Shown here: piece by piece, positions 6,183-32,993 of the stretch
How the letters are laid out: each line of letters begins with the position of its first letter
How positions within the stretch are numbered: position 1 is the first letter of the stretch
Origin: Demequina gelatinilytica
Lineage (GTDB): Bacteria; Actinomycetota; Actinomycetes; Actinomycetales; Demequinaceae
DNA length: 64,000 nt
Assembly (NCBI RefSeq): GCF_000971115.1
Contig: NZ_BBLV01000002.1
Span: forward strand, 124,001 to 188,000
Direction: 5' to 3'
The notes under the pieces: generated by a model
What the model was told of the DNA's origin: nothing
Databases searched by the model: none
The model's input: only the letters and a program-made list of their open reading frames with translations
Program-made: the position numbers and the translations under genes

Positions 6183-6755
6183 CTACTTGCCGACGATGAG
6201 GCTCATCGCCTCGGCACGCGTCGCGGCGTCCCTCATGATGCCGCGCACCGCGCTCGTGACCGTGCGGGAGCCGGGCTTGCGGACGCCGCGCATCGACATG
6301 CACAGGTGCTCGGCCTCGACCACGACGATCACGCCGCGCGCGCCGAGCTCGTCCACCAGCGCATCGGCCACCTGCGTGGTGAGCCGCTCCTGCACCTGGG
6401 GTCGCTTGGCGTAGACGTCGACCAGGCGCGCGAGCTTGGAGAGCCCCGTGATCCGGCCGTCGGTGCCGGGGATGTAGGCGACATGCGCCACACCGTGGAA
6501 CGGCACCAGATGGTGCTCGCACATCGAGTAGAGCTCGATGTCCTTGACCAGGATCATCTCCTCGTGGCCCAGCTCGAACACCGCGCTGAGCACGTCGGCG
6601 GGGTCCTCGTGGAGGCCCTTGAAGAACTCCTCGTACGCACGCGCCACCCGGCTGGGGGTGTCCTTGAGCCCGTCGCGGTCCGGGTCCTCACCGACGGCGG
6701 CCAGGATCTCCCTGACCGCGCTCTCGATCCGTGGCTTGTCGACCGGCACCGTCAC
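6183..6755 (-). CDS. folE: GTP cyclohydrolase I (FolE)
   Basis: The 190-residue enzyme opens the GTP ring to give 7,8-dihydroneopterin triphosphate, the first step of folate synthesis. Zinc ligands are visible in [12 protein letters not shown] and [14 protein letters not shown], and the conserved [20 protein letters not shown] helix is intact. The GTG at 6755 overlaps the ftsH stop as GTGA, which fixes the start without further N-terminal sequence. The ftsH-folE coupling is the normal arrangement in this group. Confidence 0.96.
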
Positions 6756-8803
6756 TCGTCCTTCGGCTCGACCAGGTCGGGCGCGGGAACGGCGTCCTCG
6801 TCGATCTCGGGGTCGCGCGCGGGGTCCTCGCCCTGCGCCGCATCGTCCGCGGCGGCCTCCTTGGCGGGGACCTCGATCGCGCTGCCCTTGGCGATCGCGG
6901 GCGCGGCCTCGATCCAGTGCCCGGAGATCCACTCGTCGCGCGCCGCGATGCGGTGCACGTCGGCGAAGATCTCCGCGAGCTCGGTCTCGCCCAGCGTCTC
7001 CTTCTCCAGGAGCGCCTCGGCGAGCGCGTCCAGGATCGCACGGTTCTGGGTGAGCGCGAGCGTGGCCTCGGCCATGGCGTTGTCCATGAGCTCGCGGACC
7101 TCCTGGTCCACGGTGGACGCCACGGACTCGGAGAACTCGCGTCCGTGCCCCATGTCGCGGCCCAGGAAGACCTCGCCGGAGCTGCCCGTGAGACGCACCG
7201 AGCCGATGCGGGTCGACATGCCGTACTCGGTCACCATCTGCTTGGCGATCTCGGTGGCCTGCGAGATGTCGTTCGACGCACCCGTCGACGGGTCGCCGAA
7301 CACGAGCTCCTCCGCGATCCGGCCGCCCATCGCGTACGCGAGGTTGTCGAGCAGCTGGTTGCGGGTCTTGGAGTACCGGTCCTCCTGCGGCATCACCATC
7401 GTGTAGCCGAGCGCACGACCGCGCGGAAGGATCGTCACCTTGGTGACGGGGTCGGTGTGGCGCATCGCGGCCGCCACGAGCGCGTGGCCGCCCTCGTGGT
7501 ACGCGGTCACCCGCTTGTCGTGGTCGTTCATCACGCGCGTGCGCTTCTGCGGGCCCGCGATGACGCGGTCGATCGCCTCGTCCATCTCGGACGGGCCGAT
7601 GAGCTGCTTCTCGCGGCGGGCCGTGAGCAGCGCGGCCTCGTTGAGCACGTTCGCGAGGTCCGCACCCGTGAAGCCGGGCGTGCGGCGCGCGAGCGCGTCC
7701 AGGTCGACCTCGGGCGAGATGGGCTTGCCCTTCGCGTGGACCTCGAGCACCTTGACGCGGCCCTTGAGGTCGGGCGCGTCGACGCCCACCTGACGGTCGA
7801 AGCGCCCGGGGCGCAGCAGCGCGGGGTCGAGGATGTCGGGGCGGTTGGTCGCCGCGATCATGATGATGTTGGTGTGGATGTCGAAGCCGTCCATCTCGAC
7901 CAGCATCTGGTTGAGCGTCTGCTCGCGCTCGTCGTGGCCGCCGCCCAGGCCGGCGCCGCGGTGGCGGCCGACCGCGTCGATCTCGTCGACGAAGATGATC
8001 GCGGGGCTGTTCTTCTTGGCCTGCTCGAAGAGGTCGCGGACACGGCTCGCTCCGACGCCGACGAACATCTCGACGAAGTCGGATCCGGAGATCGAGAAGA
8101 ACGGCACGCCCGCCTCACCCGCGACGGCGCGCGCGAGGAGGGTCTTGCCGGTGCCGGGAGGGCCGTACAGCAGGACGCCCTTGGGGATCTTGGCGCCCAC
8201 GGCCTGGAACTTGGCGGGGTTCTCGAGGAACTCCTCGATCTCCTTGAGCTCCTCGACGGCCTCGTCCACGCCCGCGACGTCCTCGAACTTCACGGTCGGG
8301 GTGTCGGGCGTCACCATCGACGCCTTCGACTTGCCGAAGCTCATGAGGCGGCCGCCCCCGCCGCCCTGCATGTTCGACATGAGGAACCAGAACAGGCCGA
8401 CGAGCAGCAGGATCGGGAGGAACGTGAACGCGATCGACGCCCAGATCGAGCTCTGCGGCACCTCGGAGTTGTAGCCCTGGGCGGGATCGGCGGCCTTGAC
8501 GGCGGCGACGATCTCCTCGCCCTGCGGCGCGACGTAGAAGAACTCCACCTTGCCGCGGTAGTCCGCCCACTCCTCGGGCGTGCCCTCCGGGAAGTCCTCG
8601 GAGTCGATCAGGGTGATCTCGACGCGCTGGTCGCCGTCGACGATCTTGACCTGGTCCGCGACCTGCTGCTCGAGCATGTCGAGGCCGACCGAGGTGTCGA
8701 CCTGCTGCGTGCGCGGCGACAGCAGCCCTGACACGACCCAGGCGACAAGCAGCGCCGCGGCGACATAGAAGATGATCAGGCGGATGTTGAGGACGTTCTT
8801 CAT
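6752..8803 (-). CDS. ftsH: ATP-dependent zinc metalloprotease FtsH
   Basis: The 683-residue membrane AAA+ protease degrades misassembled membrane proteins and some soluble regulators. It has an N-terminal membrane helix (about 9-28), an external domain and a second helix (about 122-145). Walker A is GPPGTGKT (214-221), Walker B is IIFVDEID (269-276), and the zinc site HEGGH is at 436-440. The last 50 residues are an acidic tail ([20 protein letters not shown]). The ATG at 8803 is preceded by a G-rich Shine-Dalgarno-like stretch (TCGGGGGCACG). Upstream lies a palindromic repeat and then a DUF559 gene, whereas related genomes usually have hpt directly upstream. Confidence 0.97.
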
Positions 8804-8870
8804 CGTGCCCCCGACTCTACGCGTTGGTTCAGACGGAACGTAAAGGTTTCGCTCACGGCTTGCCGTTCTC

Positions 8871-8967
8871 TGACAGCGGCAACGGAGTTGAGAACGACAC
8901 ACCGGAGTTCTGGGCCCATACCGGGCACAACGTCGGCGTGTCGAACCGAGTTCCGTTGCGGGTGTCA
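8871..8967. repeat. Palindromic intergenic repeat, family 1, copy A
   Basis: This imperfect palindrome of about 97 bases has outer arms TGACAGCGGCAACGGA and TTCCGTTGCGGGTGTCA. Inner arms are AACGACACACCGG and CGTCGGCGTGTCGAA. It ends 10 bases before the stop of the DUF559 gene (8978-8980) and lies between that gene and ftsH. Copy B is on the other side of the same DUF559 gene and copy C lies at 13.7 kb. It could fold as a long hairpin in RNA or single-stranded DNA. Confidence 0.75.
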
Positions 8968-8977
8968 CGGTGCCGGG

Positions 8978-9817
8978 TCAGCGGTTCGCCAGCCGCCACA
9001 AGGTCGCGCGCACGTCGGGCACGATCAGGTCGCGGTTCCACACGACGTCGTCGTACGTGTAGCGCAGCTCAGCACGTCCCCAGGTGGTCGCGGCGCGACC
9101 ACGATCGCGGTCCCTCCTGAACTGCGGCTTATCGCGGTGGTAGCTGAAGCCGTCGCACTCGACCACGACCACTCCCCCGACCACGAAGTCGACCCGTCCC
9201 ACCCCCTCGAGCTCGACCTGGGTCCTCACGTCGAGGCCCGCGTCGCGCATCGTCACCCGCGCCAGCGTCTCCGTGGGCGACTCGGACGAGAGGTCCAGCC
9301 GCGCGAGAAGCCAGGCCCGGCGCTCCTCGCTGCAGATCCTGAACCGCTCGATCACATCGGGCGCGGCCTTCTCACCGCGGATCGCACCCTCGATCGCTGC
9401 GAGGTGCTCAGCAGGCGGCAGGCAACGGGACGCCAGGTCGAGCGCGATGGGAACCTCGCGCATCCGCTCCAGCGGGTACCGGGTGGTCCGGTGGATCGCC
9501 ACCCGATCGAGCGGCCTGGCACCGAGGTTGGAGAGGCTCCGCGAGTCCGGCACCGCGATGTGGGCGATCATCGGTGCAGGCAGCACGGGCACGTCGTTGG
9601 CCGCCAGCACGCTCACGCACGCGGGCTCGCCGCGGAAGATCACGGCATCGACCTCTTCGTACGGCGCCTGCGGCAGCGCGAAGCAGCCACGATGCGGGCG
9701 GACCACCGTGCCCTCGGTCACCGCATGGAGCAGCGCGCCGCGCGACACCCCGGCATCCGCGAGATCGGTCCACCGCGCGGCGCCGCCGGCCATGAGAAGG
9801 GCGCGCACCGGATCCAT
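8978..9817 (-). CDS. DUF559 / AbiEi-antitoxin-like protein with Vsr-type nuclease fold (copy 1)
   Basis: The 279-residue protein has an N-terminal winged-helix-like region (WTDLADAGVSRGALLHAVTEG, then VVRPHRGCFALP) as in AbiEi-type antitoxins. The C-terminal DUF559 domain is related to Vsr/PD-(D/E)xK nucleases. The candidate catalytic set is D210 (GRVDFVV), E220 and D222 (VVECDGFSYH), followed by a basic helix (FRRDRDR). It has no promoter-proximal partner gene and stands alone between hpt and ftsH, two genes normally adjacent in this group. Palindromic repeats A and B bracket it. Such genes are numerous in actinobacteria and have no proven function. A second, divergent copy lies at 32.1-33.0 kb in the same kind of setting. 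The start ATG at 9817 is the first in frame giving the full winged helix. Confidence 0.75.
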   Translation of the reverse strand: MDPVRALLMAGGAARWTDLADAGVSRGALLHAVTEGTVVRPHRGCFALPQAPYEEVDAVIFRGEPACVSVLAANDVPVLPAPMIAHIAVPDSRSLSNLGARPLDRVAIHRTTRYPLERMREVPIALDLASRCLPPAEHLAAIEGAIRGEKAAPDVIERFRICSEERRAWLLARLDLSSESPTETLARVTMRDAGLDVRTQVELEGVGRVDFVVGGVVVVECDGFSYHRDKPQFRRDRDRGRAATTWGRAELRYTYDDVVWNRDLIVPDVRATLWRLANR

Positions 9818-9921
9818 GGATGGGACGGTCGCGCGCGGCGCTCCACGGCGCGACGCAGCGATCTCGATCGGGGGAGGACGCGCGGGCGCACGGGGGCCGT
9901 GGACCTCACGCCGTCCACCCG

Positions 9922-10019
9922 TGACAGCGGCAACGGATCTCAGACCGACACGCCGACGATCCTCAGCGAAACCCGCCCGACACGCCGCGCACCCGGGACT
10001 CGGTCCGTTGCGACTGTCA
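9922..10019. repeat. Palindromic intergenic repeat, family 1, copy B
   Basis: The outer arms TGACAGCGGCAACGGA and TCCGTTGCGACTGTCA match copy A almost exactly. The inner part differs: CGACACGCCG occurs twice as a direct repeat (9946-9955 and 9978-9987) instead of as inverted arms. It lies upstream of the DUF559 gene and seven bases past the hpt stop (10027). Together A and B frame a unit of about 1.15 kb. Confidence 0.75.
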
Positions 10020-10026
10020 GGGCGGG

Positions 10027-10584
10027 TTACTTGTCGCCGTAGACCTCGGGCTTGAGCACCGCCACGAACGGCAGCGTGCGGTAGTCCTCCGCGAAGTCGA
10101 GTCCGTAGCCGACCACGAACTGGTTCGGGATGTCGAAGCCCAGGTACTTGACGGGCACGTCCACCACGGCGGCCGCGGGCTTGCGCAGCAGCGCGGCGAC
10201 CTCGACCGAGGCCGCGCCGCGCGAGCGCAGGTTGCCGGTGAGCCACGACAGCGTGACGCCGGTGTCGATGATGTCCTCGACGATCAGGACGTGGCGGCCC
10301 GTGAGGTCCGCGTCGAGGTCCTTGAGGATGCGCACCACGCCCGAGGACTTGGTGCCCGAGCCGTAGGAGGACACCGCCATCCAGTCCATCTGCACGGCCG
10401 GCGGCATGCGCCGCGCGAGGTCCGCCATGACCATGACCGCACCCTTGAGGACGCCCACGAGCAGCAGGTCCTTGTCCGCGTAGTCGGCGCGGATCTCCGC
10501 CGCCATCTCGTCGAGCTTGCGCCCGATCGCGTTCTCGCTCACGAGCACCTCGGAGAAGTCGCTCATGTCGTACTGGAAGCTCAC
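10027..10584 (-). CDS. hpt: Hypoxanthine phosphoribosyltransferase
   Basis: The 185-residue cytosolic enzyme salvages hypoxanthine and guanine with PRPP. The PRPP-binding loop VLIVEDIIDTGVTLSWL is intact, as are LLVGVLKGAVMVMADL near the N-terminus and the C-terminal DIPNQFVVGYGLDFAEDYR segment. The GTG at 10584 overlaps the tilS stop as GTGA and has a strong Shine-Dalgarno sequence (AAGGAG, eight bases upstream) inside the end of tilS. The tilS-hpt pair is conserved widely. Confidence 0.95.
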   Translation of the reverse strand: MSFQYDMSDFSEVLVSENAIGRKLDEMAAEIRADYADKDLLLVGVLKGAVMVMADLARRMPPAVQMDWMAVSSYGSGTKSSGVVRILKDLDADLTGRHVLIVEDIIDTGVTLSWLTGNLRSRGAASVEVAALLRKPAAAVVDVPVKYLGFDIPNQFVVGYGLDFAEDYRTLPFVAVLKPEVYGDK

Positions 10585-13680: not shown

Positions 13681-13747
13681 CGCAGAAGCCCCCGACACTC
13701 CCAACGGAACCGATCCCGGTTCCGCGGCGTGTCGGGGGCTTCTTGCG
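13681..13747. terminator. Strong hairpin terminator after ppa, probably bidirectional
   Basis: The arms GCAGAAGCCCCCGACAC (13682-13698) and GTGTCGGGGGCTTCTTGC (13729-13746) pair almost perfectly. The loop can itself form a hairpin (AACGGAACCG with CGGTTCCG). It lies between ppa (+) and the convergent NlpC/P60 gene (-), and it contains part of repeat copy C. Confidence 0.75.
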
Positions 13748-13790
13748 TCCGATCCACGGCGTGTCGCGCCGAGATCCGTTGGGACTGTCG
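13692..13790. repeat. Palindromic intergenic repeat, family 1, copy C (solitary)
   Basis: Outer arms CGACACTCCCAACGGA and GATCCGTTGGGACTGTCG match the ends of copies A and B. CGGCGTGTCG occurs twice inside (13726-13735 and 13758-13767). It has no DUF559 gene beside it and is merged with the ppa terminator. Confidence 0.6.
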
Positions 13791-31927: not shown

Positions 31928-31976
31928 CACATGAAGGTGCGCACAGGGACGTGTGCGAGCACCCGTGTGTCAGCGG
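31921..31976. repeat. Palindromic repeat, family 2, copy D
   Basis: The 56-base hairpin has ends CCGCTGACAC and GTGTCAGCGG and inner arms GGTGCGCACAG and GTGTGCGAGCACC. The flippase stop codon is the TGA of CGCTGACAC. A near-identical copy (E) lies 1.07 kb downstream on the other side of a DUF559 gene. Confidence 0.8.
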
Positions 31977-32063
31977 GGCGCACGGTCCCTCACGCCCGCC
32001 CTCCCTTCCACAGGTCGAGGCCCGCCGCGACGCTCGTCCTCGCAGGCGAGGCACGATGCGCGA

Positions 32064-32993
32064 GTGCCCCGGTCCCTCGAGCTCGATCGTCGCGTGGACC
32101 AGCTGGTCACGCGGCTCGAGTGGCGTGCGCCGGGAGCCATGACTCGCAGCGCGGTGCTCACGGCCGTCGGACGACGCGGGCTGGAGAACGCTGCGCGGCG
32201 GGGACGCATCGTCGCGCTGCTCCCCGGCGTCTACGTCGCGGCGGCGTGCGCCGATTCCCACGCGGTGCGGTGCGAGGCGGTGCAGGCGTGGTCGAAGGGG
32301 CGCGTGCTGATCGCGGGAGAGTCAGCGCTGCACCTGCTCGACACCCGCTACCCGGCTCCCGACACGGTCCGCTGCCTCGGTCCGTCGTCCTGGAACGCAC
32401 GCGCTCCCGCATGGGTGGACCTCACGCGCACGCGGCTCCCGCGCGTGACGTCATCCCGCGGCGGAGTGCGATGCCTCCCGGCAGAGGCGGCGCTGCTCGA
32501 CGCCTGGGCGTGCGCCCCAAGGTGGCGTCGCAAGGACGTGCTCTACCGCGCGCTGTGGCTCAGGATCGCGGGACCCCGGCGCCTGATCGATGCGGCGAAG
32601 CGACGTTCGCGCCTGCCGGATCGCCGGGTGTTCGACGGGATCATGGGCGAGTTCGTGACCGGGGCGACCTCGCCGACCGAGGTGATGGCACGGCGTGAGG
32701 TGTTCGTCGGACCGGAGTTCGCGGAGCTCGAGTGGCAGGTCGCGATGGTCGTCGAGGGACGGGACCGCACCGCCGATGCCGTTCATCGGAGCTCGCGCAC
32801 CGTGATCGAGTGCGACGGCGAGGCGTATCACGGCAGCCGCGCCGGTAGGAGGCGTGATCGCGAGCGCGATACCGAGTTCGGCTCGGCGGGATGGCACACG
32901 GTCAGGTTCTCGTTCCAGGACCTGAGCGGGCGACCAGCGTGGTGCCGCCGCATGCTGCGGCTCACCATCGGCGCCCGGCTCGCGCCTCGCTGA
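32064..32993 (+). CDS. DUF559 / AbiEi-antitoxin-like protein with Vsr-type nuclease fold (copy 2)
   Basis: The protein is about 309 residues, with a winged-helix-like N-terminus (RSAVLTAVGRRGLENAARRGRIVALLPGVYV) and a C-terminal DUF559 domain. The candidate catalytic residues are the Asp of TADAVH and Glu/Asp of TVIECDGEAYHGS, followed by a basic helix (RRRDRERDTEFG). It shares architecture but little sequence with the copy at 9 kb. Family-2 palindromes D and E bracket it, and its own stop codon lies inside E exactly where the flippase stop lies inside D. The GTG at 32064 is chosen because it includes the full first helix (LDRRVDQLVTRLEW); ATG at 32139 is the alternative. Confidence 0.72.
   Translation: MPRSLELDRRVDQLVTRLEWRAPGAMTRSAVLTAVGRRGLENAARRGRIVALLPGVYVAAACADSHAVRCEAVQAWSKGRVLIAGESALHLLDTRYPAPDTVRCLGPSSWNARAPAWVDLTRTRLPRVTSSRGGVRCLPAEAALLDAWACAPRWRRKDVLYRALWLRIAGPRRLIDAAKRRSRLPDRRVFDGIMGEFVTGATSPTEVMARREVFVGPEFAELEWQVAMVVEGRDRTADAVHRSSRTVIECDGEAYHGSRAGRRRDRERDTEFGSAGWHTVRFSFQDLSGRPAWCRRMLRLTIGARLAPR

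Follow-up and report, generated by a model that had tools for sequence, protein, structure and literature searches.

The hpt-ftsH junction of Demequina gelatinilytica holds a single nuclease-fold gene framed by two dyad repeats, and this repeat-gene-repeat architecture recurs across the genus and the order. The arms of the repeats co-vary with the protein, the repeats have dispersed within particular lineages, whole blocks have been exchanged exactly, and the catalytic residues are conserved. In dozens of related bacteria gene and repeats change together, suggesting a type of small mobile or self-spreading DNA system that has not been described before. We read it as a module that resembles a REPtron but relies on a different enzyme, and that would recognize the arms, cut and spread by repair copying; we give this reading a probability of roughly 60%.

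The window analyzed here is the whole 64,000-nucleotide stretch (positions 124,001 to 188,000 of contig NZ_BBLV01000002.1). The relevant features, in window coordinates, are as follows:

6752-8803, minus strand: ftsH, the downstream neighbor at the fixed site
8865-10015: block swapped whole between sister genomes, with homology picking up at 8864 and 10016
8871-8967: unit A, the downstream flanking dyad repeat, 97 bp; matches repeat model R1 (E 4e-20, R1 being partly built from this unit)
8978-9817, minus strand: nuclease gene, 279 aa; predicted AbiEi-like part (residues 1-175) and EDxHD/Vsr-like nuclease part (176-279)
9922-10019: unit B, the upstream flanking dyad repeat, 98 bp; matches R1 and is also among the R1 training copies
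10027-10584, minus strand: hpt, the upstream neighbor at the fixed site
13694-13789: solo copy of the same unit type as A and B; matches R1 (E 7e-17, this copy being outside the R1 training set)

A preliminary description of this DNA had reported repeats A and B on both sides of a DUF559-type gene, in a unit with no other gene. Both points hold: positions and arms are as described, and the gene at 9817-8978 (minus) is the only one between the repeats. It lies on one strand with hpt and ftsH throughout, and unit B ends about 100 nt ahead of its start codon. Unit A has outer arms TGACAGCGGCAACGGA / TCCGTTGCGGGTGTCA and inner arms CGACACACCG / CGGCGTGTCG. The outer left arm TGACAGCGGCAACGGA is identical in A and B, the right arms are two mismatches apart, and both units contain the inner motif CGACACGCCG/CGGCGTGTCG. 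The two have 40 bp in common at 85% identity, and the arm pattern occurs 46 times genome-wide with up to two mismatches, versus once for the reversed pattern; the pairing of A and B is therefore far beyond chance. In this genome by itself, about 47 units placed at random over about 3000 gaps would be expected to give about one adjacent pair, but the idea that A and B are chance neighbors was rejected because many genomes show the same framing with arms of unrelated sequence. Another ORF of the DUF559 type, only distantly related, lies at window 31953-32993 (plus strand) and has no A-type units around it. The solo unit at 13694-13789 has a counterpart at the orthologous position in the sister genome G011.

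Every one of the 44 same-genus genomes has a homologue of the nuclease gene, as do 183 of the 297 genomes examined from the order. When flanks were compared with each other, 43 of 70 loci shared a repeat at 31.9 bits or more (cross-locus control: about 17-29 bits, apart from one unexplained outlier out of 125). A four-arm test was passed by 39 of 109 loci at the 99th percentile of the cross-locus null, where about one is expected. A control set of 159 other genes from the same contig contained none that reached 36. About 60% of loci fail this strict test; some are visibly decayed or overlap the gene end. The geometry is kept: as a rule, one unit lies about 100 nt ahead of the start codon and the other 5-45 nt past the stop. 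The arms vary by locus (CCGCACGG, GTACCGCTCAACACACGG, GACTCCCACTGGTCGATG, CGTCGTTCCTGGTT and others), and an inner GACACGCCG motif recurs at 32 of 110 loci versus 8 in larger background stretches. Outside the genus, flank pairs of 121 bp at 99%, 85 bp at 98% and 121 bp at 86% identity were seen; by their similarity, such units can be of very recent origin.

The same units are dispersed through the genome. Arm occurrences are mostly paired, about 81 bp apart, and a sequence model of 24 units gave at least 94 strand-wise matches, corresponding to at least 47 units, almost all without a gene. Repeats lying mostly without DUF559 genes had been proposed as an observation that would count against a link between the two. 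With one cognate gene for at least 47 units this is literally the situation here, but REPs behave likewise and the link is not refuted by it. Siting was assessed for 22 solo units with a crude gene call: of the 18 that were classified, 16 had tandem or convergent neighbors and 2 had divergent ones, and 2 more units overlapped called ORFs. Most of the 16 are within about 50 nt of a gene end.

Amplification is confined to particular lineages. The TGACAGCGGCAACGGA arm is present in 46 copies in G000 (the genome of the window), 50 in G002 and 41 in G011, versus 0-10 in other genomes. Likewise, the CGGCTCCGCCACACGG arm reaches 202 copies in G026 and 92 in G011 over a background of 1-20, and the GTACCGCTCAACACACGG arm has 6-26 copies in six genomes, three of them with a cognate gene, and 0-2 elsewhere. 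Lineage-limited arm amplification on a small scale was also seen in two genomes of other families. G002 and G011 carry many A-type units with no cognate gene now identified, so the units need no gene to persist, a point against the REPtron-like reading. A RAYT encoded elsewhere in the genome was excluded as the mobilizer, since the Y1/RAYT transposase domain (PF01797) has no match in any of the 44 same-genus genomes (5 of 14 control genomes match). At the hpt-ftsH site of G026 (L179), the genome with 202 CGGCTCCGCCACACGG arms, the family gene is in two pieces in different ORFs.

Comparison of sister genomes reveals how the hpt-ftsH site behaves. The preliminary description took hpt and ftsH to be normally adjacent, which is wrong for this genus: the junction is usually occupied, with a family gene in at least 29 genus genomes and, in another family, one in reverse orientation. 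Its suggestion of a packaged-module insertion survives in part. A recent insertion into an intact junction was rejected, most congeners holding a family gene there, but the block itself is discrete. Between G000 and G011, Hpt is 98.4% identical, the nuclease 34% identical and the arms unrelated. DNA homology between the two (93-94%) breaks off at window 10016 and is regained at 8864, that is, at the outer repeat edges; because homology ends there, the swapped block is exactly repeat-gene-repeat, and because the sisters can be aligned up to these edges with a different module inside, the module is a discrete one. Seven other genomes have the same homology borders to within about 25 bp. G000, G011 and G002 are sisters by Hpt, and their nucleases belong to three different clades. 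Truly empty or scar-only sites occur in three genomes, the truly empty ones too diverged to show a target-site duplication; G037 has no gene and a degenerate A-like unit at hpt-ftsH, and in G035 and G042 the two genes are no more than about 90 bp apart.

Unit replacement was also seen away from the gene. Nine solo sites were compared between the sisters G000 and G011. At two of them, G000 has an A-type unit and G011 a B-type unit, the latter with the arms of G011's own gene; the other sites are shared or, once, occupied in one genome only. No clean target-site duplication was seen, the flanks of the single presence/absence site having diverged. Separate insertions into hotspots could also account for these A-to-B differences. 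In another family, two genomes (L146, L148) share flanking genes around modules with different arms, which makes this a second fixed site with exchange. G011 also contains another palindromic repeat family with arms GGGACACTGAGCACTCC (contig C16, 138981-139152 and, within L221, 129980-130189), which is absent from the matching G000 sites and for which no cognate gene was identified.

We next consider the encoded protein. Its Pfam matches are AbiEi_4 above cutoff and MTES_1575 and DUF559 below theirs. In an AlphaFold model (pLDDT 94), residues 1-175 are predicted to adopt an AbiEi antitoxin fold (6y8q, VIA; Z 8.2 over 170 residues, rmsd 4.3) and residues 176-279 an EDxHD/Vsr-like nuclease fold (I-Bth0305I, 3r3p, Z 12.1; Vsr, 1cw0, Z 11.2). 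An alignment of 31 divergent homologues, comprising the window protein and others 30-65% identical to it, shows no variation at E183, D210, D222, H227 and D236. The protein thus combines a Vsr-like fold with the conserved E, D, H and D that define EDxHD/Vsr-like nucleases, and the invariance of five catalytic residues across divergent homologues suggests that the active site is kept by selection. Carriage on a phage or plasmid was considered and rejected, with no phage match and one plasmid match at 35%.

The AbiEi relationship raises the alternative that survives best, namely that this is an AbiEi-descended defense or regulatory protein whose flanking units are autoregulatory operators or terminators, whose dispersed copies are extra sites with a host role, and whose exchange reflects ordinary recombination of a diversifying defense locus. 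AbiEi proteins do bind their own promoters at paired 23-bp inverted repeats (PMC7319586), yet the module has an equally conserved second unit past the stop codon, where an operator is superfluous, and its solo units lie mainly by gene 3' ends, as the tandem or convergent siting indicates. The window protein weakly matches PADLOC AbiEi profiles, and MTES_1575 domains are found in predicted defense giants (PMC3710099); no AbiEii (DUF1814)-type toxin gene, however, adjoins the nuclease gene, whose neighbors are hpt and ftsH. Module alleles are swapped as defense genes are, but tens of copies in one lineage with none in its neighbors are typical of dispersal. We consider this alternative unlikely, if the most serious of the three. 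The module resembles AbiEi antitoxins (S. agalactiae AbiEi, Mtb Rv2827c) in the fold of residues 1-175 and in the inverted repeats that AbiEi binds, and differs from them in its nuclease fusion, the lack of an adjoining toxin gene, and repeats that lie on both sides of the gene and are dispersed.

Arms and protein are related across 40 loci: the higher the protein identity of two loci, the more similar their arms tend to be (Mantel r 0.48, a value reached in 0 of 2000 permutations). By part, r is about 0.48 for residues 1-50 and for residues 51-175, and 0.27 for the nuclease part. The stronger correlation with residues 1-175 than with the nuclease suggests that the AbiEi-like part reads the arms. 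This co-variation also bears on the possibility that the units are MITEs whose transposase is unrelated or lost and which tend to insert close together, with the nuclease gene as a passenger. As short dyads of about 100 bp that are intergenic, dispersed and mostly without a gene, the units do look like MITEs or the enterobacterial 127-bp repeat units. Unlike MITEs, they are linked to a specific resident nuclease gene, and no target-site duplication was seen at the one presence/absence site, whose flanks have diverged; arm type follows protein identity, many unrelated arm families frame the same gene family in different genera, and other genes are not framed. A MITE origin is thus improbable.

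The 24 aligned units are 96-99 bp long, with conserved arm blocks GACA and (C)AACGGA between which positions mismatch freely. Arm base pairs in these 24 copies show no covariation beyond shuffles. As single-stranded DNA, unit A folds well (z -4.1 and -3.3 for the two strands) and unit B no better than shuffles (z -0.9 and -1.0). The preliminary description's word hairpin therefore holds only in part, for unit A and not for unit B, and hairpins as the feature under maintenance find no support in arms that do not covary. Given the lack of covariation and the conserved blocks with free mismatch between them, a dyad read by a protein fits better than a selected hairpin, and the arms look like candidate protein-binding sites. 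That the units are structured RNA elements or terminators kept for an RNA-level function is very improbable: their starts are often within about 50 nt of a stop codon and unit A has a stable fold, but an Rfam search of the region gave no match, covariation is missing, the length is near-constant while the core is variable, and unit B does not fold.

For the REPtron-like reading, we propose that the AbiEi-like N-terminal part would recognize the arms of its own repeat family, in this genome a bipartite ~GACA-N5/6-CAACGGA, with two subunits probably sitting on the two arms of one ~97-bp unit. The EDxHD nuclease part would nick or cut either these units or target sites. Copying during repair, in the manner of homing or gene conversion, could then seed solo units in intergenic DNA and let one module take the place of another at a fixed position, hpt-ftsH being an example. 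We infer arm binding, cleavage and protein-driven spread of the units.

Known REPtrons have cognate framing repeats, gene-free dispersed copies and repeat-class switching at one chromosomal site (PMC3686654, PMC8266576). The analogy to REP/RAYT systems drawn in the preliminary description fits, extending to cognate flanking repeats, dispersed copies and co-diversification. As in REP/REPIN-RAYT (TnpA-REP) systems, a single chromosomal nuclease gene lies between cognate palindromic repeats, of which many gene-free copies occur elsewhere in intergenic DNA, the repeat class is tied to the enzyme, and different classes frame the gene at one site in relatives. Unlike in those systems, the enzyme is an AbiEi-EDxHD nuclease with no HUH/Y1 domain, modules are exchanged whole between sisters, and the units are ~97-bp dyads, whereas a REP is a 20-50 nt palindrome with a GTAG/CGTC tag; no tag of this type is conserved at the ends of the 24 aligned units. 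The module thus works like REP/RAYT and is not a member, because its enzyme is unrelated and its repeats lack the REP tag. With I-Bth0305I, which dimerizes on a target of about 60 bp (PMC3943268), and with Vsr it has in common the catalytic domain fold and the conserved E/D/H/D residues, but it lies outside any intron or phage and is framed by its own repeat family. A free-standing homing endonuclease cuts an allele without the gene, into which the gene is then copied; of this behavior the outcome alone is seen here, as exchange exactly at the module borders.

DUF559/MTES_1575 proteins of this type are common in the order, with no assigned role found, and the openly accessible literature on DUF559 with repeats, AbiEi with DUF559, and MTES_1575 contains no account of such a system. 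These proteins appear to be tied to specific DNA repeats that are directly usable as candidate substrates, and the module offers an explanation for one class of the intergenic repeats found here. Should the link prove causal, REP-like elements would have originated twice, the second time with an unrelated nuclease. We extend the reading further only tentatively, at somewhat less than an even chance, to a widespread actinobacterial repeat-plus-nuclease class in which an AbiEi-EDxHD protein would recognize, spread and rewrite its own ~100-bp dyads, with homing-like replacement of whole modules and solo repeats; this would be the first REPtron-like system without an HUH enzyme. Dozens of natural protein/DNA-site pairs are available for studying the joint evolution of recognition specificity and targets.

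Two further features of the units are worth recording. In some solo units (L007, L011, L023 (1420-1597)) the core is a long, perfect palindrome of unrelated sequence, a possible sign of hairpin-templated correction. In several G011 units (the upstream unit of L083; C16 127540-127660), the outer arms are tandemly duplicated with a 21-bp step.
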